The notes beneath the pieces are model-generated. The model did no database searches. It was not told where the DNA came from and saw nothing but the letters and a program-made list of their open reading frames with translations. The position numbers were made by a program, and so were the translations under genes. 64,000 nucleotides of DNA from Fibrobacter sp. (GTDB lineage Bacteria > Fibrobacterota > Fibrobacteria > Fibrobacterales > Fibrobacteraceae), in assembly GCA_012511955.1 (NCBI GenBank), contig JAAZFC010000003.1:1-64000 (forward strand). The letters run 5' to 3'. This document shows, piece by piece, positions 2,993-17,783 of this stretch; positions within the stretch are counted from its first letter, which is position 1, and each line of letters opens with the position of its first letter.

Positions 2993-3589
2993 TCACAACC
3001 CTTCTTTTTTCCAACCTAAAGTTTTAGTTATATTAGCAGCACGCCGATTATCCATGGCTCCTATAGCAGCCATTAGCTTCGCTTGAGCACGCACTTCGGG
3101 CACTCTTTTAATAATCCTAGCTATGGAGACATTGTCTAAATTCAATAAAATAGGAGCAGCTTCTACTGGCTTCATAGAGCCATAAACCTCAGCTAACTCT
3201 TGTACCTTTTGTTCGGACAAACTTTTAGATTCATCCACCAACTTGTCAATTCGCTCCCTTTCGGCAAAAACTTCATTGCGCAATTGGGCATTTTCTGCCC
3301 GTAAAGCCTCTAAGCGAGCAATTTCTTCCTGAATTTCTTTTTTAGCTTGCTCCAAAGAATCGGCCATTTTTACATTAGCTTTGTATAAATTACTTTGCTC
3401 TTTATCAAACTGCTGTTGTTCGCTATCAAACCTCTCTAAATAACCCGATAGCTGTTCTTTAAGCACCGATGTATCGCTAAACTCCAAGTGTGCCACACCC
3501 GTACCTAACAATACCGCAAAGAAAACCACAGGAAAGACCAATAGCGAAGCTATGCCTACTCCAATAATATCTCTAGCTTTTAAATTCAT
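2993..3589 (-). CDS. MotE-like / MgtE-N-domain flagellar protein with one membrane helix
   Basis: About 198 residues: an N-terminal membrane segment (about residues 8-30, IGVGIASLLVFPVVFFAVLL), a long coiled coil rich in Glu, Lys and Gln (about 45-130), and a C-terminal MgtE_N-like helical domain with YGSMKPVEAAPILLNL. This is the architecture of MotE, a chaperone for the stator protein MotC in some bacteria, and of unnamed proteins that sit by fliJ/fliK elsewhere. The start is placed at the ATG at 3589, which follows GGAGATTAAT, rather than the TTG 12 nt upstream. It is the first gene after a sigma-54 promoter and heads the fliK-flgD-flgE operon. Exact role here is inferred. Confidence 0.75.
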   Translation of the reverse strand: MNLKARDIIGVGIASLLVFPVVFFAVLLGTGVAHLEFSDTSVLKEQLSGYLERFDSEQQQFDKEQSNLYKANVKMADSLEQAKKEIQEEIARLEALRAENAQLRNEVFAERERIDKLVDESKSLSEQKVQELAEVYGSMKPVEAAPILLNLDNVSIARIIKRVPEVRAQAKLMAAIGAMDNRRAANITKTLGWKKEGL

Positions 3590-3617
3590 ATTAATCTCCA
3601 AGCGCTACAACACACCT

Positions 3618-3634
3618 AGCAATTAATATGCCAA
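3618..3634 (-). promoter_or_regulatory. Sigma-54 promoter of the motE-like-fliK-flgD-flgE operon
   Basis: Read on the minus strand the site is TTGGCATATTAATTGCT, that is TGGCA-N6-TTGCT, which matches the RpoN -24/-12 consensus (TGGCACG-N4-TTGCW) at all the key GG and GC positions with exact spacing. The inferred start lies about 19 nt before the ATG at 3589. The site immediately follows the flgM terminator. Confidence 0.85.
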
Positions 3635-3685: not shown

Positions 3686-3967
3686 TTACAGTAATGAAAC
3701 AATTTTTAGAGCGATTTGATCCTCAATGGCAGGACTAATCCTATATCTGTTATTCTGCACTTGTTCCGTTACTTTATTCACTCGCACAATGCGTTCTTTC
3801 TCCCAATTACTCTCAGCATTTAAAAGATCTTTGCTTTTAGCTAAGCTTTCTTGGGACAACACAACCCTATCCACTTGAGCCTGGGCAGGTGCAGACCGCT
3901 CAGCACTCTTGCGGGCTTCGGGGTTGCGGATAAATTCCGCCACTCGGGCCACTATTGGAGTCTGCAT
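3686..3967 (-). CDS. flgM: FlgM-like anti-sigma-28 factor
   Basis: 93 residues. The C-terminal half, with VDRVVLSQES, then ERIVRVNKVTEQVQNNRYRI and a final helix ending IALKIVSLL, has the spacing and character of FlgM. In that family this half binds FliA (sigma-28) and is released when FlgM is exported through the finished hook. The N-terminal 30 residues are basic and probably disordered, also typical. It stands alone between its own sigma-28 promoter (4002-4028) and a strong terminator (3633-3667), so FlgM would be autoregulated by the factor it inhibits. Family similarity is modest by eye; the promoter and neighbourhood raise confidence. Confidence 0.8.
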   Translation of the reverse strand: MQTPIVARVAEFIRNPEARKSAERSAPAQAQVDRVVLSQESLAKSKDLLNAESNWEKERIVRVNKVTEQVQNNRYRISPAIEDQIALKIVSLL

Positions 3968-4043: not shown

Positions 4044-6632
4044 TTATTTTAAACCTAAATCAGATTTAAGTTCTTTATATAGGTAAACTAGCTCTTCATT
4101 TTGTGGATATTTTTTAGCTCCCATTTCTAATAGACCTAAACTTTCCTCGATTTTATTACTCATTATATAAACTTTTGCTAAAGCCAAAGTATTTTCAGCG
4201 TTGGCTTCAATCATTGTCGCCGTAGCAAGTATAGGCTCGGTATACTCATACAGCTCCAGGTCAAAATACAAAGCCGCCAAAGAAGCTCCATGCACTATTT
4301 CTCCTTTGCCTACCGCCAAACCCATTTTTAAAATATCCACCGCCAAAGCAACCTGTTGTCTTTCGTGCCAATAAACTGACAAAAACTTACAGGCCTCAAC
4401 TTTCATTTGCACATAATCCACTGGAGTTAAGGTAGGTTCTTCTTGAAAGCACATTAAAGTACCATATATATGGGCTGCGTCTGTGGGTAAATCCATGGTT
4501 TTTAAAATTTGCGCAAAAACTAAACGAGCAGCGGGCAATAAAGAATTGCGCTGTATATATTGCGATAAAATATCATAAGCCTCTTGCAAATTTCCTTGCT
4601 GAGCTTTTACTTCTGCAATTTTTACGGGAGCCATTTTAAGCAAATGTTGATCTTCTCCCACCTTTTCTGCCCTTTCCATGCTTTTGCTATACCACTTAAT
4701 TGCATTTTCATACTCTCCTAAATCCAAATAAGCATTTCCCATAGTGTAATACTTCATAGCATTCACATTTTTGGGGTCTAAGACTATATCTTTTTCCAAA
4801 AGTTTAAGGTTGCGCTGCTGCTTCTCTTTTATAGTTGCAAAATCTGTATAACCCGTATGTATAACTTTAATGCTTAAAAATTTAACAGGGATTTTTAACT
4901 TTTGTAAAGAAGGCATCACTTGTTCATGTACTCTTCCTTCGAATCTGATTTGATTATTATTAGGGAAAAGACGAATTTGATTGAACACCGCACCAGTTAG
5001 CCCGATATCTTGGCTATTTTTAATCAAAAAACTATAGGCTTCATTGGCCACTGCGCTTTCCACCAACTTTTTTATCGCATCTTTATCAGCTGCCAACAAC
5101 ACATCGTCAGCATCTAACCAGAAAATCCACTTTCCCTGCGCCTCTGCCAAAGACTTGTTGCGGGCAGCAGAAAAGTCGTTTACCCAAGGAAATTGCACCA
5201 CTTTGGCCCCAAAGCTTTGGGCTATACTAACAGTGTTATCAGTGGATCCTGTGTCCACTACAATAAGCTCATCCCATAAACCAGTAATGGCTTCTAAACA
5301 TTTAGATAAATACTTCTCTTCATTTTTTACTATCATACAAACAGATAATAAAATGTCTGTATCTTCTGCATTATCCGGTGCTAAAGCTCGCTCCATTCTT
5401 GTTTTAGCTTCTTGCATTTTTATATGATTACCGCTAAGTTCATAAGCTGTAATTAAAGCCAGCCAAGCTTCGCGGCTTAAAAGTTCATCTTTGGCTATAC
5501 CCTGCTCCAAATAATAAATAGCCTTGGCGTACTGCCTGCGAGCCAAAAATATCTTACCTAACCAAAAAGAAGTTTCTATAACCATGGGAAACTCTTCTTT
5601 AAACTTTTTTGCAATTTCTAAGGCAGCGGCATATTCCTTTTCGCGGTATAAAATATTGCATAAAAACTCGTAGACGTACATGCGTATCACATTGTAATTT
5701 TGTGCTTGGGTGCTTTTTTCCACTCCCAATTCCAATGATTTATACAATAGTGGCTTCGCTATAGCATGCTCATTGTCAAAATAATGCGCCTCGCCTAAAT
5801 GAAAAGTCGCTTCTAAGGAATTTTTATCGTTTTCTAAAGCTTGCTTGTACCAAGCCTGGGCTTCTTTATACTCTTTTAATCTAAAGAAAGACTTACCAAT
5901 GGCTAAAATTGAAGTCTGCCAAGCATCATAATTTAATTGTTTAGAGTTGGGGATTTCTAAAACTTCTTTATAAGCCAAAATGGCTTGGGTATGCTGTTCC
6001 AAAATCGCATAGCTATCCCCTAATTGGGTAGAAATCACTGGATCTTTACCGCGGTCGGGTTCTAACAAAAGCAAATCTAAATTCCGTTGAGCTTTTTGCT
6101 TGCGCATCTCTTCATCTTCATAGCCTGTATGCCAAATTTGCACATCAGTGCGCACTTGTTTTAAGCCCAAATTTTGCACTGCAAAAACTATTTGTTCGTG
6201 GATTTTACGACGAAAACGCAATTCTGGATGATTGGGGAACATTCTAATTTGAGAAAACACTGCACCAATAGCTAAACCAGCTTGGGTATTTATAACTTCA
6301 AAAGAAAAAACTCTATCCAAATCTTGCTGTGTCAATTGTTTTAACGATTCTACTTGGTCTTCAGGAATCACATCGTCCGCATCCATAAATAAAATCCAAG
6401 TTCCCGTAGCATGCTCTAGGCTTTGATTGCGCGCTAGACTAAAATCATTTTCCCATTTATTTTCTATGAATTTTACTTTAGGATAGCGTTGGAGAATTTC
6501 TAAAGTACCATCCGTGGAACCTGTGTCATTAACAATGATTTCATCAGCCACAGGGAGAAAACTTTCTATGGCTGTGGCTATATTTGCTTCCTCATTTTTT
6601 ACAATCATACATATTGATAAAGTCTGCCCCAT
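4044..6632 (-). CDS. Tandem GT2 glycosyltransferase with TPR repeats
   Basis: 862 residues with two GT-A (family 2) domains. The first is at about residues 1-240 (start LSICMIVKNEEANI, then DTGSTDGT and the metal-binding FMDADDV). The second is at about 430-660 (SVCMIVKNEEKYL, DTGSTDNT, FWLDADDV). Each is followed by TPR repeats, at about 240-420 and 610-860. No signal peptide or membrane helix is visible, so it is probably cytoplasmic. Both catalytic DxD motifs look intact. It ends the sigma-54-driven operon beginning with the MerR-like gene, and lies between flagellin and flgM. Modification of flagellin or another flagellar protein is the best guess; a substrate cannot be read from sequence. 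An AAGGA ribosome binding site precedes the ATG. Confidence 0.8.
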   Translation of the reverse strand: MGQTLSICMIVKNEEANIATAIESFLPVADEIIVNDTGSTDGTLEILQRYPKVKFIENKWENDFSLARNQSLEHATGTWILFMDADDVIPEDQVESLKQLTQQDLDRVFSFEVINTQAGLAIGAVFSQIRMFPNHPELRFRRKIHEQIVFAVQNLGLKQVRTDVQIWHTGYEDEEMRKQKAQRNLDLLLLEPDRGKDPVISTQLGDSYAILEQHTQAILAYKEVLEIPNSKQLNYDAWQTSILAIGKSFFRLKEYKEAQAWYKQALENDKNSLEATFHLGEAHYFDNEHAIAKPLLYKSLELGVEKSTQAQNYNVIRMYVYEFLCNILYREKEYAAALEIAKKFKEEFPMVIETSFWLGKIFLARRQYAKAIYYLEQGIAKDELLSREAWLALITAYELSGNHIKMQEAKTRMERALAPDNAEDTDILLSVCMIVKNEEKYLSKCLEAITGLWDELIVVDTGSTDNTVSIAQSFGAKVVQFPWVNDFSAARNKSLAEAQGKWIFWLDADDVLLAADKDAIKKLVESAVANEAYSFLIKNSQDIGLTGAVFNQIRLFPNNNQIRFEGRVHEQVMPSLQKLKIPVKFLSIKVIHTGYTDFATIKEKQQRNLKLLEKDIVLDPKNVNAMKYYTMGNAYLDLGEYENAIKWYSKSMERAEKVGEDQHLLKMAPVKIAEVKAQQGNLQEAYDILSQYIQRNSLLPAARLVFAQILKTMDLPTDAAHIYGTLMCFQEEPTLTPVDYVQMKVEACKFLSVYWHERQQVALAVDILKMGLAVGKGEIVHGASLAALYFDLELYEYTEPILATATMIEANAENTLALAKVYIMSNKIEESLGLLEMGAKKYPQNEELVYLYKELKSDLGLK

Positions 6633-6634
6633 GC

Positions 6635-7294
6635 TTAGTCCTTGACAAAGGTTAAACGATAATTTTTAATATACAAGACTTCCAAATTGTCAGCGAAATT
6701 AGAAAAATAAAATAACACATCTAAATCTCTATGCTGAAATCCTCCCTTTAGCATAGTGTTTTTAATACTTTCATCTATTTCTAATTCTTTATTTTGCAAA
6801 TCAAACCCCAAAAACTCCAAATGCTGTATAAGCCTTTTTAGGCGCAAAGTTGTATCAGCCATAGTTAAACTATTGGGCATGGTAATATACTCCCTACTAG
6901 TTTTTAAAATTAAATTTAAAAAATAGCGAGGGTTATTAAGCCTAACATTTAAAGTACCTCCCTCGGCTAAACCTTGCACACAATCTATGCAAAAATCTGG
7001 TGTTCTTTCCCATAAATCAGAAAACCCATGGTTACAAATCACACTATGATAGTCCCAGTCACTCAAAGGCCAAGATGCACTTAAATCTTTCATATAAATT
7101 ACATCTTTGTCATTATCCAAAGCCAAACCTGGAGCTAAAACTAAAGATTTAGCATCCCAACCAAGTTTTTTATAAGCAGACAGTTCCGCTGACCCCGCTT
7201 GTAACAACAATAAACGATTTTCAGTTGTACCTTTTGCTGGTTGTAACCACCAATTATCTGCATTTTTGGTGTAAGCACACAGTAACTCACTCAT
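6635..7294 (-). CDS. Degenerate methyltransferase-like protein in the glycosyltransferase operon
   Basis: 219 residues. The layout resembles a class I SAM methyltransferase: a strand with LLLLQAGSAELSAYKKLGW where motif I should be, then YHSVICNHGFSDLW (motif II/III-like), then LAEGGTLNVRLNN (post-motif). The glycine-rich motif I is not conserved (QAGSAE instead of the usual D/ExGxGxG), so SAM binding is doubtful. Its ATG overlaps the stop of the upstream 872-residue glycosyltransferase by 4 nt, and it ends 2 nt before the next glycosyltransferase gene, so the three are translated together. It may act as a structural partner of the transferases or in a methylation of the glycan; neither is shown. 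Confidence 0.55.
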   Translation of the reverse strand: MSELLCAYTKNADNWWLQPAKGTTENRLLLLQAGSAELSAYKKLGWDAKSLVLAPGLALDNDKDVIYMKDLSASWPLSDWDYHSVICNHGFSDLWERTPDFCIDCVQGLAEGGTLNVRLNNPRYFLNLILKTSREYITMPNSLTMADTTLRLKRLIQHLEFLGFDLQNKELEIDESIKNTMLKGGFQHRDLDVLFYFSNFADNLEVLYIKNYRLTFVKD

Positions 7295-9876
7295 TCAAAA
7301 CCCTCTAGTATTGATGTTATATCTTTTAAATTAGGATCTACCTCTACAGCGTTTCTCAAATAAAGCAAAGCTTCTGCTGTAATATTTGTCTTTTTTGCCG
7401 CTTCCCATAAATTTTTCAACGAATCATTGTCCAAAGGATAAAGTTCCACAGCCTGTTTAAAAACCTCGTAGGCTGTAGTAAAATCGCCCCTATAAAAAGC
7501 CCCTATTCCCATACCATTTAAAGCATCCAAATTAGTAGGGTCTATATCTAAAACATCGCCAAAAACTAAAATTCCCTGATCCACATCTTGTTTATCGATA
7601 AAATCATGAGCTTTTTGTAATAACTTTGGAATATTATACTGTTTTTGCTCTGAATCTTTGTAAGCATAAAGCATTTTCTCTACTTCATCTTGCTTAATCT
7701 GCTTATAAATGCTTTGAAATTCAGGATTTTCGCCATTAACATTTTTTACCAAAGTCAAAACTTCATCAAAATCTTGGGGTTGCTTTGCTTTTTTTCCACT
7801 GTGATAAAAATTGCTAAAAGCATCTAAAAACCAAGGATTCTCAACCACGGCTTTCTTAAAATAATTGTAAGCTGCCAGATAATCTTGCCTATACCATTCT
7901 GCAATGCCATAATTGTTTAAAGAACGATAATATTCTGGCTCCAGAGGCAAAACCTCATCTAAAAGTTCTAAAGCTTGCTCCCATAAACCCTCGCGGAGTA
8001 GATTTTCTATTTCCGCATTATAGCTACGCAATTGGGCTAAGTTCTCCGCAGAAAGGGGATTTTCGCTTTTTAGTCTTTGCAATTCGTGGGAAATCATTTT
8101 CAAAACTGGCGATGAGGGATTATATAATAATGCTTTTTCTAAAATAGCTTCCACAGCTTTAGTATCGCCTAAACGAATGCAAGTATCATGAAAATTCAAT
8201 AAAACATCTTCGTCGCCAGGCTTTATGGCCAAAGCTTTTTTAAACCAAGTACTGGCTTCGGCAAAAAAACTCTGATAGTACCTGACTAGGCCCAAATAAT
8301 TGTATATCATAAACAAATCCTGACCACTAGGCACTAAAGATTTAAGTAAAAGCAGAGCCTTTTCAAATTCCCCTTTTTCTAACAAAGATTTAACTTCATT
8401 TTGCCATTTATCCCAAATATTCAAGTCTGCAACAAACTGCAAATTTTTAACTTCAGGAAACTTTTCTCTCAAAACTCTTAGCAACTCCAATGAACTTTCC
8501 ACAGAGTAGTGCTGGGCCAAAAACTCTTTAATAAGAGTGGCTGATTTTTCTGCGGTCAGACGATCTTCTAAAGCTAAGCGATAGTGAGTAAATGCCTGGG
8601 TAAACTCCTGGTTTTGCTCGGCAATTTTACCTTGTTGCAAACTGTAATAGCCCACTGAGTGATTGGCTAGGCCATTTTCTCGACCTTTAGACCATTTTTG
8701 TTTAAAAATCAAATCATTTTTCAGCATCTGCGTGGTCCAATCTATTTGCGCACCTTTAAAGCTCACGCTGCCAAAATGAAATAAAAAACTATCATCGGCC
8801 ACTAGCAATTTATAGCCCAAATATCTGGCCCTGCAAGAATAATCATCATCTTCAAAATTACCGAGTCCAAAAACCTCATCAAAAGGTCCCACATCTTTTA
8901 AAACATTTTGTGGAATTAGCATGCAAAAACCTTTTGCCCTGCTGATTTCCCATGCAGACAAATCATTGGCATCTTGAATTTCCTTTGCTAATTGTGTAAT
9001 CTCTGCTTCGCTTTGGTAACTGAAGCCATTGACTATTTGCGGTCCCCCCACACTATTGGAACGACACGAAACAATGCCCGCTGAGGGGTGATTTTGTGCG
9101 CATCGCACCATATTTTCTAAAAAGTTTGGACCACATATAGTATCGTTATTCAAAATTAACGCATAGTCCCCAGTAACAAGCTCTAAACCTTGATTCCATC
9201 CTTTGGCTACCCCCAAATTTTCGGCATTATGTATAACTTTTGCACCAGAAATAGCATCAAAATACTCTTTGGTGCCATCGGTAGAACCATTATTAACCAA
9301 AATCAGCTCATATTTCTGCCGGCAATGCTTTGCTAAGCTCTCTATGCACTTTTTGGTATATTCCAGCTGATTTAGTGCTAATATTATGATAGAAACTTTC
9401 TTTTCTAAATGGTAAGCGCTTTGGCAGGCTTGGGCTTTGACCAGGATTTTTTGACTTTCACCCCATAGAATCTCTTCGGGTAAAAAGCCTGCACTATTGA
9501 CTTTATGACCGAGGTAATTAGGATTGTAATCCACATGATCTGCGTTTTCCCAACTTTCCATAAAGTCAATAGCAAATCCCCCCTGCATAATTTCGCGCCG
9601 CACATCGTGGGGGGATAAAGCGCTATTCGTGTTATAATTAGCTTCGGGGCATTGATAAAATGCATTTTCGAAAAGCACAAATAATGTATGCAATTTATGT
9701 TTTCGCAAATGGCGGATGTATTTAGCACTACCAGGAAGTTCTAGGGAACTAATATTCCACACCAAAACCTCGCAATCCTCGGGCAGAACTTCGCGATTTT
9801 GTAGATCTAAGCAAACTCCTAGAGATAAAACTCCAACTTTTGCGGAAATATTTAAATGCCTATGCAACTGCATAGG
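7291..9876 (-). CDS. GT2 glycosyltransferase with TPR repeats
   Basis: Up to 872 residues. A central GT-A domain (about residues 165-400) has VSIIILALNQLEYTKKCIE, NNGSTDGT, the ENLGVAKGWNQGLE helix and the catalytic LILNNDT. TPR-like repeats fill the C-terminal 450 residues (for example FTQAFTHYRLALE and FAEASTWFKKALAI). The first 160 residues match nothing I know; one piece (SPHDVRREIMQGGFAIDF) recalls the tail of a methyltransferase. The start is uncertain: TTG at 9909 has no good ribosome binding site; ATGs at 9876 and 9870 lie inside a 28-bp inverted repeat. 9876 is used here. Second gene of the sigma-54 operon after the MerR-like gene; flagellin glycosylation is inferred from position. 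Confidence 0.78.
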   Translation of the reverse strand, partial: PMQLHRHLNISAKVGVLSLGVCLDLQNREVLPEDCEVLVWNISSLELPGSAKYIRHLRKHKLHTLFVLFENAFYQCPEANYNTNSALSPHDVRREIMQGGFAIDFMESWENADHVDYNPNYLGHKVNSAGFLPEEILWGESQKILVKAQACQSAYHLEKKVSIIILALNQLEYTKKCIESLAKHCRQKYELILVNNGSTDGTKEYFDAISGAKVIHNAENLGVAKGWNQGLELVTGDYALILNNDTICGPNFLENMVRCAQNHPSAGIVSCRSNSVGGPQIVNGFSYQSEAEITQLAKEIQDANDLSAWEISRAKGFCMLIPQNVLKDVGPFDEVFGLGNFEDDDYSCRARYLGYKLLVADDSFLFHFGSVSFKGAQIDWTTQMLKNDLIFKQKWSKGRENGLANHSVGYYSLQQGKIAEQNQEFTQAFTHYRLALEDRLTAEKSATLIKEFLAQHYSVESSLELLRVLREKFPEVKNLQFVADLNIWDKWQNEVKSLLEKGEFEKALLLLKSLVPSGQDLFMIYNYLGLVRYYQSFFAEASTWFKKALAIKPGDEDVLLNFHDTCIRLGDTKAVEAILEKALLYNPSSPVLKMISHELQRLKSENPLSAENLAQLRSYNAEIENLLREGLWEQALELLDEVLPLEPEYYRSLNNYGIAEWYRQDYLAAYNYFKKAVVENPWFLDAFSNFYHSGKKAKQPQDFDEVLTLVKNVNGENPEFQSIYKQIKQDEVEKMLYAYKDSEQKQYNIPKLLQKAHDFIDKQDVDQGILVFGDVLDIDPTNLDALNGMGIGAFYRGDFTTAYEVFKQAVELYPLDNDSLKNLWEAAKKTNITAEALLYLRNAVEVDPNLKDITSILEGFE

Positions 9877-9881
9877 CATTT
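9854..9881. repeat. Inverted repeat over the glycosyltransferase start codons
   Basis: Two 13-nt arms (AAATGCCTATGCA and its complement) are separated by 2 nt. The repeat covers the two candidate ATG starts (9876 and 9870) of the large glycosyltransferase gene. It has no U-tract after it. It could be a translation-blocking hairpin or a protein-binding operator; it also encodes residues, so chance is possible. Confidence 0.6.
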
Positions 9882-9941
9882 CAACTATCTTTTCTGTTTT
9901 ATTTCCCAAACTTTAACCGCCATTCAAAGAAGTGTGTTATT

Positions 9942-10187
9942 CTATGCAGCTTCTAGTTTTAGCAAACGCTTAGCACCCGCTATGGAATAGCCCTCGATTT
10001 TAAGCAGATGCTTTATGCGCTCAAGCTTAGAAATGCTATCATCATCATAACGACGCTGGCGACCACTAGTTCTATACAAATTAATATAAAAATGAAATTC
10101 CTTTTCCCAAAACCTCAATGTATGGGCAGGAATAGACAAAAATCGGGAAACATCGCCAATGCCAACTAATGTATTTAAAGATTTCAT
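9942..10187 (-). CDS. MerR-family HTH DNA-binding protein
   Basis: 81 residues forming a single winged-helix HTH of MerR type: VGIGDVSRFLSIPAHTLRFW, then the wing RTSGRQRRYDDDSI and a helix LLKIEGYSIAGAKRLL. No effector-binding domain follows, so it resembles the stand-alone MerR-like regulators. It is the first gene after a sigma-54 promoter at 10216-10232 and precedes two large glycosyltransferases by 33-66 nt. It may control this operon or another flagellar step. Its target is unknown; the 28-bp inverted repeat at 9854-9881 is a candidate. Confidence 0.8.
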   Translation of the reverse strand: MKSLNTLVGIGDVSRFLSIPAHTLRFWEKEFHFYINLYRTSGRQRRYDDDSISKLERIKHLLKIEGYSIAGAKRLLKLEAA

Positions 10188-10215
10188 AATATCTCCTTAG
10201 ATTATACACTAGTAA

Positions 10216-10232
10216 AGCAAAAACCTTGCCAT
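10216..10232 (-). promoter_or_regulatory. Sigma-54 promoter of the MerR/glycosyltransferase operon
   Basis: The minus strand reads ATGGCAAGGTTTTTGCT: TGGCA-N6-TTGCT, with the -24 GG and -12 GC in exact register. It is about 30 nt before the MerR-like ATG at 10187. The rest of the 129-nt gap down from csrA (10233-10316) shows no further clear signal. Confidence 0.8.
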
Positions 10233-10316
10233 TACAAAAGCTTAGTTTATCCTTTAGTATATACTTTAACTATTGAAAGTTCAGGAATATTTTTCAACTC
10301 TTAGGTATATTTTTCC

Positions 10317-10544
10317 TTATTTTTTAAACATCTGCTGCAAAGAACTTATTCCTATAGAAGCTTGTTGTGCTGCCTGTTTATTTTCTTCTAGGATTTTTTG
10401 ATAAACTTCTTCTCTATAAATGCTTATTGCTCGAGGCGCATCTATTCCTAATTTTATGTTGTTGCCGTCTATTTCCACCACTATTACTTTAATATTATCT
10501 GCTATGCGAATAGACTCACCAGGTTTTCGAGTTAAAACTAACAT
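10317..10544 (-). CDS. csrA: Carbon storage regulator / translational repressor CsrA
   Basis: 75 residues starting MLVLTRKPGESIRI, followed by VVEIDGNNIKLGIDAP and a helix EVYQKILEENKQA: the complete CsrA fold, with the RNA-binding strand 1 and the Arg of the IYREE region. The tail after residue 60 is slightly longer than in E. coli. CsrA binds GGA motifs in mRNA leaders and blocks ribosomes. It lies 2 nt after fliW, the gene for its protein antagonist, and close to flagellin, the classic arrangement of the FliW-CsrA-flagellin switch. Confidence 0.95.
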   Translation of the reverse strand: MLVLTRKPGESIRIADNIKVIVVEIDGNNIKLGIDAPRAISIYREEVYQKILEENKQAAQQASIGISSLQQMFKK

Positions 10545-10546
10545 GA

Positions 10547-10978
10547 CTATAGCTCCTCCGGCATAAGTAATTCTCTAGTGGTGTATTTGCCATCATCTAA
10601 AATAACTTGCTTGCCTATCTTTTTTTCGATATTTATCAATACTGGACCAGACAAGTTTGCGGTGGATTCCTTAGCCACAGGTTTTAAAGTTACAATAACA
10701 AACAATAAAAGATCCTTTCCATCTTCTATTTGTAAATCTGCAATCTGCTCTTTGCTCAGCTTGGGGGAATAATCTTGACGAAAATTCAGGGGATTAATCA
10801 TCAAGAAACGAATCTTAGGGTCGTCCACCGAATTAAGCCAAACAAAAGGTTCATGCTCAGCACTCATGGACAACAAATATCTAGTCAGGGATTCAAATCC
10901 GGGTACACCACCTTGAAAATGAATTACATCGGAAAGATCATAAGCCATACCATGCAATTGTTTTTTTTCTTCTACCAT
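10547..10978 (-). CDS. fliW: Flagellar assembly factor FliW
   Basis: About 143 residues. FliW binds either newly made flagellin or CsrA, so that flagellin secretion releases FliW to inactivate CsrA and permit flagellin translation. Visible family motifs are FQGGVPGFESLTRYLL near the N-terminus, PFVWLNSVDDPKIRFLMINP in the middle, and NLSGPVLINIEKKIGKQVIL near the end. The ATG at 10978 has GAGG 6-7 nt upstream and is preferred to the TTG at 10993. The gene is followed directly by csrA and preceded by the flagellin gene and its terminator. Confidence 0.94.
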   Translation of the reverse strand: MVEEKKQLHGMAYDLSDVIHFQGGVPGFESLTRYLLSMSAEHEPFVWLNSVDDPKIRFLMINPLNFRQDYSPKLSKEQIADLQIEDGKDLLLFVIVTLKPVAKESTANLSGPVLINIEKKIGKQVILDDGKYTTRELLMPEEL

Positions 10979-10993
10979 AAAGACCTCAAACAA

Positions 10994-11084: not shown

Positions 11085-11933
11085 TTATTGGTCGAAAAGA
11101 CCCAAAATACTCTTAGGCAAGGAATTTGCTTGAGCTAGCATAGCCGTAGAAGCTTCGTTGAGAATTTGATAACGCACCATTTCCGTTGTCATACGCGCAA
11201 AATCAGTATCTCTAATAGTGGACTCCGCTGCCTGGGTGTTAGATTCTTGAACCATCAAGTTATTAACCACAACTTCTAACCTATTCATTAACGCTCCTAG
11301 GGTAGCTCTATTGCTACTTACACTAAACAAAGCGTCATCCAGTTCATCTACAGCCAAATAAACAGAGTTTAAATCAGCAATTCCTGAAGTCTCCAAACCC
11401 AAGGCATCTAAAGTTACAGATTGAATACTAACATTAATAGTATCAACACCTATGCTATTATTAACCCCTAAATGTATAACTGAAGGGCCACCCAAAGAAC
11501 CAAAAGAAGTGGTTTCATCATTTAAAATCTGCATAGAGTTGTATTGGGTTTGGTAAGCAATACGATCAAGTTCTTCTTTAAGAGATTGATATTCCACATC
11601 CATATAATTGCGATCATTGCTGGTCCACACGCCGTTAGCTGATTGCACTGCCAACTCACGCATTCTCTGTAAAATATTAGTCACTTCGTCTAAAGCGCCT
11701 TCGGCGATTTGTAGCAATGAAGTTGCATCATGAGCATTGCGTGTCACCACAGCAGAACCGCGAATTACTTGGCGTAATTGCTCAGAAACTGATAAATTTG
11801 TAGGATCATCTGCAGCTCTATTTATTCTTAGCCCCGTACTTAACTGAGTCATTGCATTTCGTAAGCTTCTGTCACTTACACTTAATGACTGCTGGGACAC
11901 CAAAGCTGGTATATTATGATTTATTCTAGCCAT
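11085..11933 (-). CDS. fliC: Flagellin
   Basis: 282 residues with both conserved flagellin ends. The N-terminal D0/D1 part starts MARINHNIPALVSQQSL and includes QLSTGLRINRAADDPTNLSV and MRELAVQSANG. The C-terminal part includes ESTIRDTDFARMTTEMVRYQ and the exported tail SLPKSILGLFDQ. The variable central domain is short (about residues 140-200), so the subunit lacks a large D2/D3 outer domain. It has its own sigma-54 promoter and terminator, so it is transcribed alone. A CGGAG ribosome binding site sits 4 nt before the ATG and overlaps a possible CsrA site. Three neighbouring glycosylation-type genes suggest that it is modified after translation. Confidence 0.96.
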   Translation of the reverse strand: MARINHNIPALVSQQSLSVSDRSLRNAMTQLSTGLRINRAADDPTNLSVSEQLRQVIRGSAVVTRNAHDATSLLQIAEGALDEVTNILQRMRELAVQSANGVWTSNDRNYMDVEYQSLKEELDRIAYQTQYNSMQILNDETTSFGSLGGPSVIHLGVNNSIGVDTINVSIQSVTLDALGLETSGIADLNSVYLAVDELDDALFSVSSNRATLGALMNRLEVVVNNLMVQESNTQAAESTIRDTDFARMTTEMVRYQILNEASTAMLAQANSLPKSILGLFDQ

Positions 11934-11935
11934 AT

Positions 11936-11945
11936 CTCCGTTCCT
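11936..11945 (-). promoter_or_regulatory. Candidate CsrA-binding sites on the flagellin ribosome binding site
   Basis: The predicted 27-nt flagellin leader contains AGGAACGGAG just before the start codon: two GGA cores three nt apart, the second being the Shine-Dalgarno sequence itself. CsrA binding there would block translation, as known for hag of Bacillus. Two sites this close could not both be filled by one dimer, so only one may be used. Confidence 0.45.
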
Positions 11946-11970
11946 ATTTTATATATCTGCTTACAACTAA

Positions 11971-11987
11971 AGCAACTACCGTGCCAA
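11971..11987 (-). promoter_or_regulatory. Sigma-54 promoter of flagellin
   Basis: The minus strand reads TTGGCACGGTAGTTGCT, a complete match to TGGCACG-N4-TTGCW. The inferred start is near 11960, 27 nt before the ATG. It is the best sigma-54 match in the window. Confidence 0.92.
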
Positions 11988-12068
11988 TACTTTTATGCTG
12001 TTTTTTACTGTATACTTTCATTTTTTTCACTATTTCAAGGCATTATTTTCCTTATCAGCAAGTTTTAC

Positions 12069-16289: not shown

Positions 16290-17783
16290 TTATTTTTTTG
16301 AGAAGTGTTTTATGATTTTATTTCTATAAGCATCCCCACCTTTAGCAAAATAATTTGCCATATACTTTTGCGCTCGTGGAGATTCTAACTTATAATATTC
16401 ATAAGCTAAGGCTAAGTTTTTTTCAAAAAACGGATCAGAAGCTTTATGTTTCACTGCTTTTTGCATAACATTGATTAGCGCGTCCCATTGCTTTTGCTCG
16501 CCTAAAAGCATCGCCTGCAATTTCCAAGCCGATTCCAAGGAAGCATTGTACCTAGTAGAATGACGCAATTCTACCAAAGCTTCATTTAACATGTTTTGTG
16601 AAGCGTATAGCAGAGCTAGCTGTTCGTACAATAAAGCTTTACGAGGCTGTTGCTTGATTTTTCGTTGCAGTGAAATTCGTTGATTTTCGTATTCTCTAAA
16701 ACTATATTTTTGTACTTTCCTATCTTTCCATTGGGGATTGTATTGGGACCAAACCATGGACATCAGTTCTTGTCTTAAAAAATACCTATCCATATCTTTA
16801 CCAGCTTCCCGATGCAAATATTTATGCAGATAACTTATACCTTTCAAAGTGTCTGCCAAATGATAAACGCTTAGCACCCCCAAATTTCTAAGAGTTTCTA
16901 AATGAGTGGAGTCTATGCTATAAGCTTTGCGTAATGCAATATGCGCCTGCCCAATATTTTCTTGTTCTTGATAAACCGTAGCCAAAAGATTCCAATAAAT
17001 TACATTTTTATGGTCTAATTCTATGGCTTTTTGCACATAAGTTAAAGCTTTGCTAAACAAGGCTTTTTGTAAATAGACTTCACCCAACCAACGGTTTGCC
17101 TCAGCACTTACAGTTTTTCTACTTTGGAGCTTTGTCAAAATATTTATAGCACTATCCAATTCAGAAGCTTTAAATAGATCTTTCTCTGTTTTGCTCAAAA
17201 CTTGTTGTGTGCCGTATTCTGCCCAAGATTCTTGATTCATATTATGGCGAGCTATGCCAATAAAGACAATGGCTTTTTGCAGGAGTAGTCCCTCGTCACC
17301 GGGCTGAGCGGCTAATTTAGCACTAATTTCCTCATGGGCGCCCTCCATGGTACCCGCAGATTTTTTGGCCAAAGAGCGAATTTGTTGGTCAGTATTTTTA
17401 GAGGATGACGGCTCAAAATGAGATAAAATAAACTCACTGCCAAAATAGAAAAGCACAAAAGAAAGCAAAAGAATGCCACTAAGAATAAAAGCCACGCCTT
17501 TTCCTAGCCTAAATTTGGGAGAATGTTCAACTGGGTCTAAACTTGGAATCACTATTGCAGGCAAAGGTGGCTGAACATCTACCTCTGCACCCAAATCGGC
17601 AAATAATTGTTCTATTTTACGAGCATACTCAGTGGAAGCACTCTCAATCATAGTGTGTGGCAAAACTTTTAAAATTTCCACCGCCTCTTTTTTGCTTATG
17701 CCCTCTAAAGCGCTTAGAGATATTGCAATGTTGCGCAAATCAGATTTAAGGGTTATTTTTTTTAAAATAACTTTGTGCCGCAC
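16290..17783 (-). CDS. TPR membrane protein with an L7/L12-like N-terminal domain
   Basis: 497 residues. Residues 1-72 resemble the C-terminal domain of ribosomal protein L7/L12: HKVILKKITLKSDLRNIAI, a helix GISKKEAVEILKVLPH and a final LFADLGAEVDV. A proline-rich linker leads to one membrane helix (about 95-115, GVAFILSGILLLSFVLFYFG). The remainder has TPR repeats, such as FSKALTYVQKAIELDHKNVI and LNEALVELRHSTRYNASLES, on the far side of the membrane. It follows a lipoprotein gene by 11 nt and lies just upstream of the flgJ promoter. A role in scaffolding an envelope complex is possible; nothing links it firmly to flagella. Confidence 0.7.
   Translation of the reverse strand: MRHKVILKKITLKSDLRNIAISLSALEGISKKEAVEILKVLPHTMIESASTEYARKIEQLFADLGAEVDVQPPLPAIVIPSLDPVEHSPKFRLGKGVAFILSGILLLSFVLFYFGSEFILSHFEPSSSKNTDQQIRSLAKKSAGTMEGAHEEISAKLAAQPGDEGLLLQKAIVFIGIARHNMNQESWAEYGTQQVLSKTEKDLFKASELDSAINILTKLQSRKTVSAEANRWLGEVYLQKALFSKALTYVQKAIELDHKNVIYWNLLATVYQEQENIGQAHIALRKAYSIDSTHLETLRNLGVLSVYHLADTLKGISYLHKYLHREAGKDMDRYFLRQELMSMVWSQYNPQWKDRKVQKYSFREYENQRISLQRKIKQQPRKALLYEQLALLYASQNMLNEALVELRHSTRYNASLESAWKLQAMLLGEQKQWDALINVMQKAVKHKASDPFFEKNLALAYEYYKLESPRAQKYMANYFAKGGDAYRNKIIKHFSKK

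Follow-up and report, generated by a model that had tools for sequence, protein, structure and literature searches.

A putative sigma-54-dependent flagellar operon of Fibrobacterota combining a MerR regulator with GmaR-type glycosyltransferases, probably for protein O-glycosylation

In Listeria monocytogenes, GmaR acts both as flagellin O-GlcNAc transferase and as antirepressor of MogR; it transfers GlcNAc to flagellin, and its tetratricopeptide repeats (TPRs) have been proposed to bind flagellin (PMC9638930). Here we describe a locus with enzymes of this type in the first 64,000 nucleotides of contig JAAZFC010000003.1 (Fibrobacter sp., assembly GCA_012511955.1), hereafter the window, which is part of a Fibrobacterota metagenome-assembled genome of 2.68 Mb that is 97% complete. 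Its core is an apparent operon encoding a MerR-type regulator, two large glycosyltransferases of family 2 (GT2) with TPRs, and a methyltransferase-like protein. The initial annotation knew of no named system with this content, which holds for the gene set, while GmaR comes close to the GT2-TPR enzymes as a functional precedent.

The resemblance to GmaR extends to the arrangement of a GT2 domain followed by TPRs, the tie to flagellar genes, a short flagellin without large outer domains as the likely substrate and the pairing with a DNA-binding regulator. In contrast to GmaR, one of the two enzymes carries two GT2-TPR units, the paired regulator is of the MerR type and not MogR, the operon appears to be driven by sigma-54, and no sequence match to GmaR was obtained beyond the glycosyltransferase domain. 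The peptide S-glycosyltransferase SunS (TIGR04195) belongs to the same GT2 subfamily (207 bits, below the 350-bit cut-off) but modifies a bacteriocin cysteine, whereas the context here is flagellar.

Reports on islands for flagellin glycosylation in Clostridioides difficile, Geobacillus and Enterobacteriaceae (PMC5207246, PMC5109656, PMC4875605) likewise place glycosyltransferase genes at the flagellin locus. None of the papers found on such islands describes a unit that joins flgM to a dedicated MerR and a sigma-54 promoter, or covers the phylum Fibrobacterota, and the literature searched contained no paper combining flagellin glycosylation, MerR and sigma-54. Some flagellin glycosylation islands also include methyltransferase genes. 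In Campylobacter, Helicobacter and Vibrio, RpoN drives hook, hook-associated protein and some flagellin genes, with a sigma-28/FlgM checkpoint; the locus described here differs in that its sigma-54 class would include a glycosylation operon with MerR and flgM. Flagella are ancestral in the Fibrobacteres and were lost in Fibrobacter according to Abdul Rahman et al., whose text mentions neither glycosylation nor sigma factors (PMC4704652). Glycosyltransferase genes at flagellin loci are already known elsewhere, and what is new here is the regulatory and operonic setting of GmaR-type enzymes. Most work on flagellin glycosylation concerns Proteobacteria and Bacillota; the locus offers a concrete conserved gene set for this modification in Fibrobacterota, whose best-known genus lost its flagella, and would make a single sigma factor responsible for glycosylation, flagellin synthesis and FlgM.

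All flagellar genes of the locus lie on the minus strand, where the four annotated open reading frames were recovered at the sizes originally given: merR (9942-10187, 81 residues), GTA (7291-9909, 872 residues, one GT2 domain and a TPR tail), MT (6635-7294, 219 residues, methyltransferase-like) and GTB (4044-6632, 862 residues, two GT2-TPR units in tandem). The end of merR is separated from the annotated GTA start by 32 bases, GTA and MT overlap by 4 bp, and the gap between MT and GTB measures 2 bases. The operon had been placed between csrA and flgM; csrA was indeed found upstream (10317-10544, minus strand), but the unit continues beyond GTB and includes the flgM-like gene (3686-3967, minus strand) as its last member as well as an intrinsic terminator (3669-3640, minus strand; 13-bp stem with 6 GC pairs and a TTTATTT tail). 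The apparent single transcription unit thus spans 10231-3640, with the order sigma-54 promoter, merR, GTA, MT, GTB, flgM and terminator. Co-transcription of flgM with the glycosyltransferases is likely, since this strong terminator follows flgM and no comparable one was found on the minus strand within the merR-flgM unit. A direct Pfam search with the FlgM-like protein gave no match, and its predicted role as an anti-sigma-28 factor comes from a weak similarity (E=3.5e-4) to a protein in the same operon position of genome G056 that itself reaches the Pfam FlgM cut-off. The corresponding sigma factor FliA (sigma-28) is encoded in the genome.

A link to GmaR came from GTB. Pfam detected two GT2 stretches (1.8e-50) and TPRs in both halves, and the two halves matched the glycosyltransferase domain of Listeria GmaR with E values of 1.7e-35 and 1.3e-26 over about 185 residues. 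For each half this domain was the closest natural sequence match in the PDB, with SunS behind it, and comparable scores were reached only by engineered consensus TPR proteins via the repeats. The VDTGSTD, DXD-type DADD and HEQ/HxGY motifs are retained, leaving the nucleotide-sugar motifs intact. No sequence match to GmaR outside the glycosyltransferase domain was found in the PDB, a comparison that did not extend to the fold and for which the presence of the antirepressor chain in the PDB copy was not checked. GTA contains one GT2 domain (Pfam GT2, 9e-27), of a subfamily different from that of GTB, in addition to its TPRs. Its homologues elsewhere are longer (1,371-1,750 residues), most of them with an extra N-terminal GT2 domain, and merR-adjacent homologues are present in G010, G063, G064, G066 and six genomes of genus g15.

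A flagellar-type sigma-54 promoter had been proposed ahead of the operon, and the site (-24/-12 element TGGCAAGGTTTTTGCT, 10216-10231, minus strand) is an exact pattern match with GG-N10-GC spacing located 28 bases ahead of the merR start codon. The genome encodes a single copy of rpoN and contains 35 exact matches to TGGCAN6TTGCW. Five of them fall within the first 16.3 kb of the contig, all on the flagellar coding strand, compared to about 0.2 expected from the genome-wide density. We examined 30 of the genome sites; where a gene followed closely, it was flgB, flgF/G, flgD, a FlbB-like gene, merR, flagellin or flgJ, or one of a few others such as spoVG-like and hsp20-like genes. For sites beyond the window, gene names were given by visual inspection of N-terminal sequences. 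This distribution, in agreement with the original proposal, points to a predicted sigma-54 regulon made up largely of flagellar genes, with the merR operon as a member. Near-consensus sigma-54 sites were also present ahead of merR, flagellin and flgJ in G010, and upstream of merR in Fibromonas-like genomes (the labels Fibromonas-like and Fibrobacter-like denote inferred genera). As a separate observation, about 11 bases separate the end of the -12 element from the merR ATG in the Fibromonas-like loci L066, L068, L069, L071, L072, L074 and L075, and the transcript would therefore be nearly leaderless.

The association with flagella was evaluated in 137 Fibrobacterota genomes, each at least 80% complete, which comprised 50 flagellin-positive and 87 flagellin-negative genomes. 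At a threshold of E<=1e-20, GTB homologues were found in 39 of the former and none of the latter (Fisher p=1.4e-24), where the Fisher p-values given here ignore shared ancestry and most flagellin-negative genomes belong to one Fibrobacter-like genus. Flagellin-negative genomes of a second family (genus g13 beside g15) likewise lacked GTB. G072 and G052 have a GTB-like gene immediately adjacent to flagellin; in G054 and G098 one is located nearby, and in G082 it adjoins flgJ. Conservation beside flagellar genes in relatives, which the initial annotation had named as its own test, was observed, but the full four-gene set was present in one relative only, because MT has no other detectable homologue in the 137 genomes. 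This relative, G010 of the same family, keeps flgJ-flgN-flgK-flgL-flagellin-fliW-merR-GTA-MT-GTB at 26-71% identity. G056, from another family of the class, has the order sigma54-merR-GTA-...-GTB-flgM, and G096 and G097, outside the class, share flgJ-flgN-flgK-flgL-sigma54-flagellin-fliW-merR-GT2TPR, with csrA between fliW and merR in G097. The widely conserved core is MerR plus one GT2-TPR protein.

We consider it probable that the unit is a flagellar operon which depends on sigma-54 and serves to O-glycosylate flagellin or some other exported axial protein. Flagellin glycosylation, as originally put forward, is the best reading because of the GmaR-type glycosyltransferase domains and the restriction of GTB homologues to flagellin-positive genomes of the phylum. 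Several observations weigh against it. The GT2-TPR architecture also serves outside flagella (SunS matches nearly as well as GmaR), and the acceptor therefore has to be deduced from context. GTB homologues were missing from 11 flagellated genomes, so flagella in the phylum can do without GTB, and some Chitinispirillaceae-like GTB-like genes lie away from flagellar genes. Furthermore, Fibromonas-like genomes carry GTB alone and merR alone, and the operon contains no nucleotide-sugar synthesis genes.

In the mechanism we propose for flagellin glycosylation, RpoN would jointly activate the merR, flgJ-flgN-flgK-flgL and flagellin-fliW-csrA units, and by analogy with general flagellar biology this sigma-54 class would yield the enzymes once the hook-basal body stage permits flagellin expression. 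Unfolded flagellin would dock onto the TPR tails of GTA and GTB while still in the cytoplasm, and the GT2 domains would pass nucleotide-activated sugars to Ser/Thr residues before export. GTB, with its two GmaR-type catalytic domains, would form the protein-sugar bond, GTA would extend or diversify the glycan, and MT might cap it or have a scaffolding role. FlgM, made from the same mRNA, would restrain sigma-28 until export, again as expected from general flagellar biology, and MerR would bind DNA as a regulator devoted to flagellar or glycosylation genes. The assembly-coupled switch suggested initially fits the sigma-54 and flgM context, but sensing of assembly by MerR or the glycosyltransferases would be conjecture.

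The role of MerR deserves separate consideration. The protein (Pfam MerR_1, E=8.7e-18) consists of a bare N-terminal winged-helix DNA-binding domain and ends right after it, without a C-terminal coiled coil or effector domain, and its orthologues show only short variable tails. When 116 MerR domains were placed in a tree, all 26 flagellar MerRs of Fibrobacterota, including this one, formed one clade (support 100/98) apart from a paralogue. Flagellar MerRs scoring at least 121 bits were detected in 21 of the 137 genomes, with a clear gap to the housekeeping paralogue (at most 75 bits), and all 21 carriers were flagellin-positive (Fisher p=2.3e-11, shared ancestry again ignored). The possibility that this MerR is the common housekeeping MerR was rejected, as the genome encodes that paralogue separately (C131) and the tree splits the two with the same support. 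Of the 26 carriers, 16, representing nine families, had a GT2-TPR gene immediately after merR, the partner being GTA-like in some and GTB-like in others. The ten exceptions were nine Fibromonas-like genomes, in which merR stands alone with its own sigma-54 promoter, and G075, in which it closes a flagellin-fliW-csrA-merR set. Outside the phylum, where flagellin was checked in five named genomes, the Armatimonadota L087 and L112 both carry flagellin and show merR with a GT2-TPR gene immediately behind it. The unclassified bacterium Tobar14m-G34 (L092, 9547-11781) has two merR genes of a related type just upstream of flagellin.

This tight merR-GT2-TPR linkage suggests functional coupling and invites the analogy to GmaR and MogR. 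In such a switch MerR would repress or activate flagellar promoters and one of the GT2-TPR proteins would bind MerR, so that transcription responds to free flagellin or to the glycosylation load; that enzyme would then have two jobs, like GmaR in Listeria. The recurrence of the pair, Armatimonadota included, and the GmaR precedent speak for this switch, as does a 15-mer, AAAGTATAyAsTAAA, located about 20 bases upstream of the -24 elements of merR (10253-10267) and flagellin (12004-12018, both minus strand) and without any other exact match in the genome. While this 15-mer is a possible candidate operator, it was found post hoc from two inspected sequences, which makes its rarity partly circular, it is absent upstream of merR in G010, and a search for an operator common to seven flagellar sigma-54 sites yielded no k-mer exceeding shuffles. 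Moreover, the type of the merR partner varies between GTA-like and GTB-like. Since no match to GmaR beyond the glycosyltransferase domain was obtained and MerR is kept without a glycosyltransferase neighbour in the exceptional genomes, MerR may merely be a flagellar regulator standing first in the operon. On balance we regard the switch as rather unlikely. Its extension to the phylum level is rather improbable as well: a two-part control module of Fibrobacterota and Armatimonadota, in which a GT2-TPR flagellin glycosyltransferase moonlights as a regulator with an adjacent single-domain MerR, would parallel GmaR/MogR while using an unrelated DNA-binding partner and would report flagellin load or glycosylation to sigma-54/sigma-28 transcription. 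The recurrent pair in any case provides a testable case of whether glycosyltransferase-regulator coupling as in Listeria arose more than once.

A 34-bp near-perfect dyad (TTTAAATGCCTATGCA/TGCATAGGCATTTCAA, 9851-9884), unique in the window, is located at the 5' end of GTA and folds as a 12-bp RNA hairpin (AGUU loop, z -3.4) that surrounds an alternative ATG. It may control GTA translation as an mRNA hairpin or act as an operator; as an operator of MerR it was set aside, as it has no counterpart at the same place in other loci and may be such a hairpin.

An alternative target for the glycosyltransferases would be another flagellar axial protein such as the hook protein FlgE or FlgK/FlgL instead of flagellin. 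The operon shares its presumed sigma-54 class with flgD, flgJ-flgK-flgL and flgB and sits between filament and hook genes, which would fit this alternative, but in several genomes (e.g. G052 and G072) the GTB-like gene is directly beside flagellin with no hook genes near, and the GmaR precedent concerns flagellin, which together make it improbable. That the enzymes serve a cell-surface polysaccharide or another protein and are located here by chance or for timing is more improbable still: GT2 domains are common, SunS-type enzymes act on other peptides and flagellin-distant GTB-like genes exist, but the flagellin-negative genomes without a GTB homologue include Fibrobacter-like ones with many other GT2 candidates, and the operon with merR and flagellar genes is conserved over the phylum.

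MT is probably a degenerate class I S-adenosylmethionine (SAM)-dependent methyltransferase fold, to which weak evidence points. It gave no match in Pfam or in a PDB profile search, and no homologue in a scan of GTDB contigs; in a two-sequence profile search its only detectable homologue among the 137 genomes was that of G010, which is fused to a TPR-like tail and reaches Pfam Methyltransf_23 below threshold (E=0.1, the only match at E 10). The top 50 PDB fold matches listed for an AlphaFold2 model of MT were almost all methyltransferases (best E about 1e-4), but given the low pLDDT of the model (42) they serve as no more than a hint. Because the glycine-rich SAM motif I (GxGxG) is missing, with LLLLQAGSAEL in MT and LLVIQGSAEE in the G010 homologue, the protein may be catalytically dead.

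The complete minus-strand order of the surrounding genes, read 5' to 3', is flgJ, flgN, flgK, flgL, flagellin, fliW, csrA, merR, GTA, MT, GTB, flgM-like, FlbB/MotE-like, fliK, flgD and flgE. The likely substrate, a flagellin of 282 residues (Pfam Flagellin_N, 6.6e-39), occupies 11085-11986 on the minus strand including its sigma-54 site (11971-11986) and is followed in the neighbouring operon by fliW and csrA (10317-10993, minus strand; Pfam FliW 5.8e-39, csrA homologues in conserved order). Four further flagellin genes form a tandem array elsewhere (G000 C42, L194, 7005-11526), the second of which is split into an N-terminal (8869-9402) and a C-terminal part (9505-9729) by a frameshift or sequencing error. 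A TPR protein of 497 residues is encoded directly upstream of flgJ (16290-17783). The protein encoded between flgM and fliK (2993-3601) has one N-terminal hydrophobic stretch and a coiled coil and weakly resembles the periplasmic-flagella collar protein FlbB (NCBIfam E=5e-5, below cut-off), a type of protein unexpected outside spirochaetes, or alternatively could be MotE-like; its gene has its own sigma-54 site at 3618-3633.

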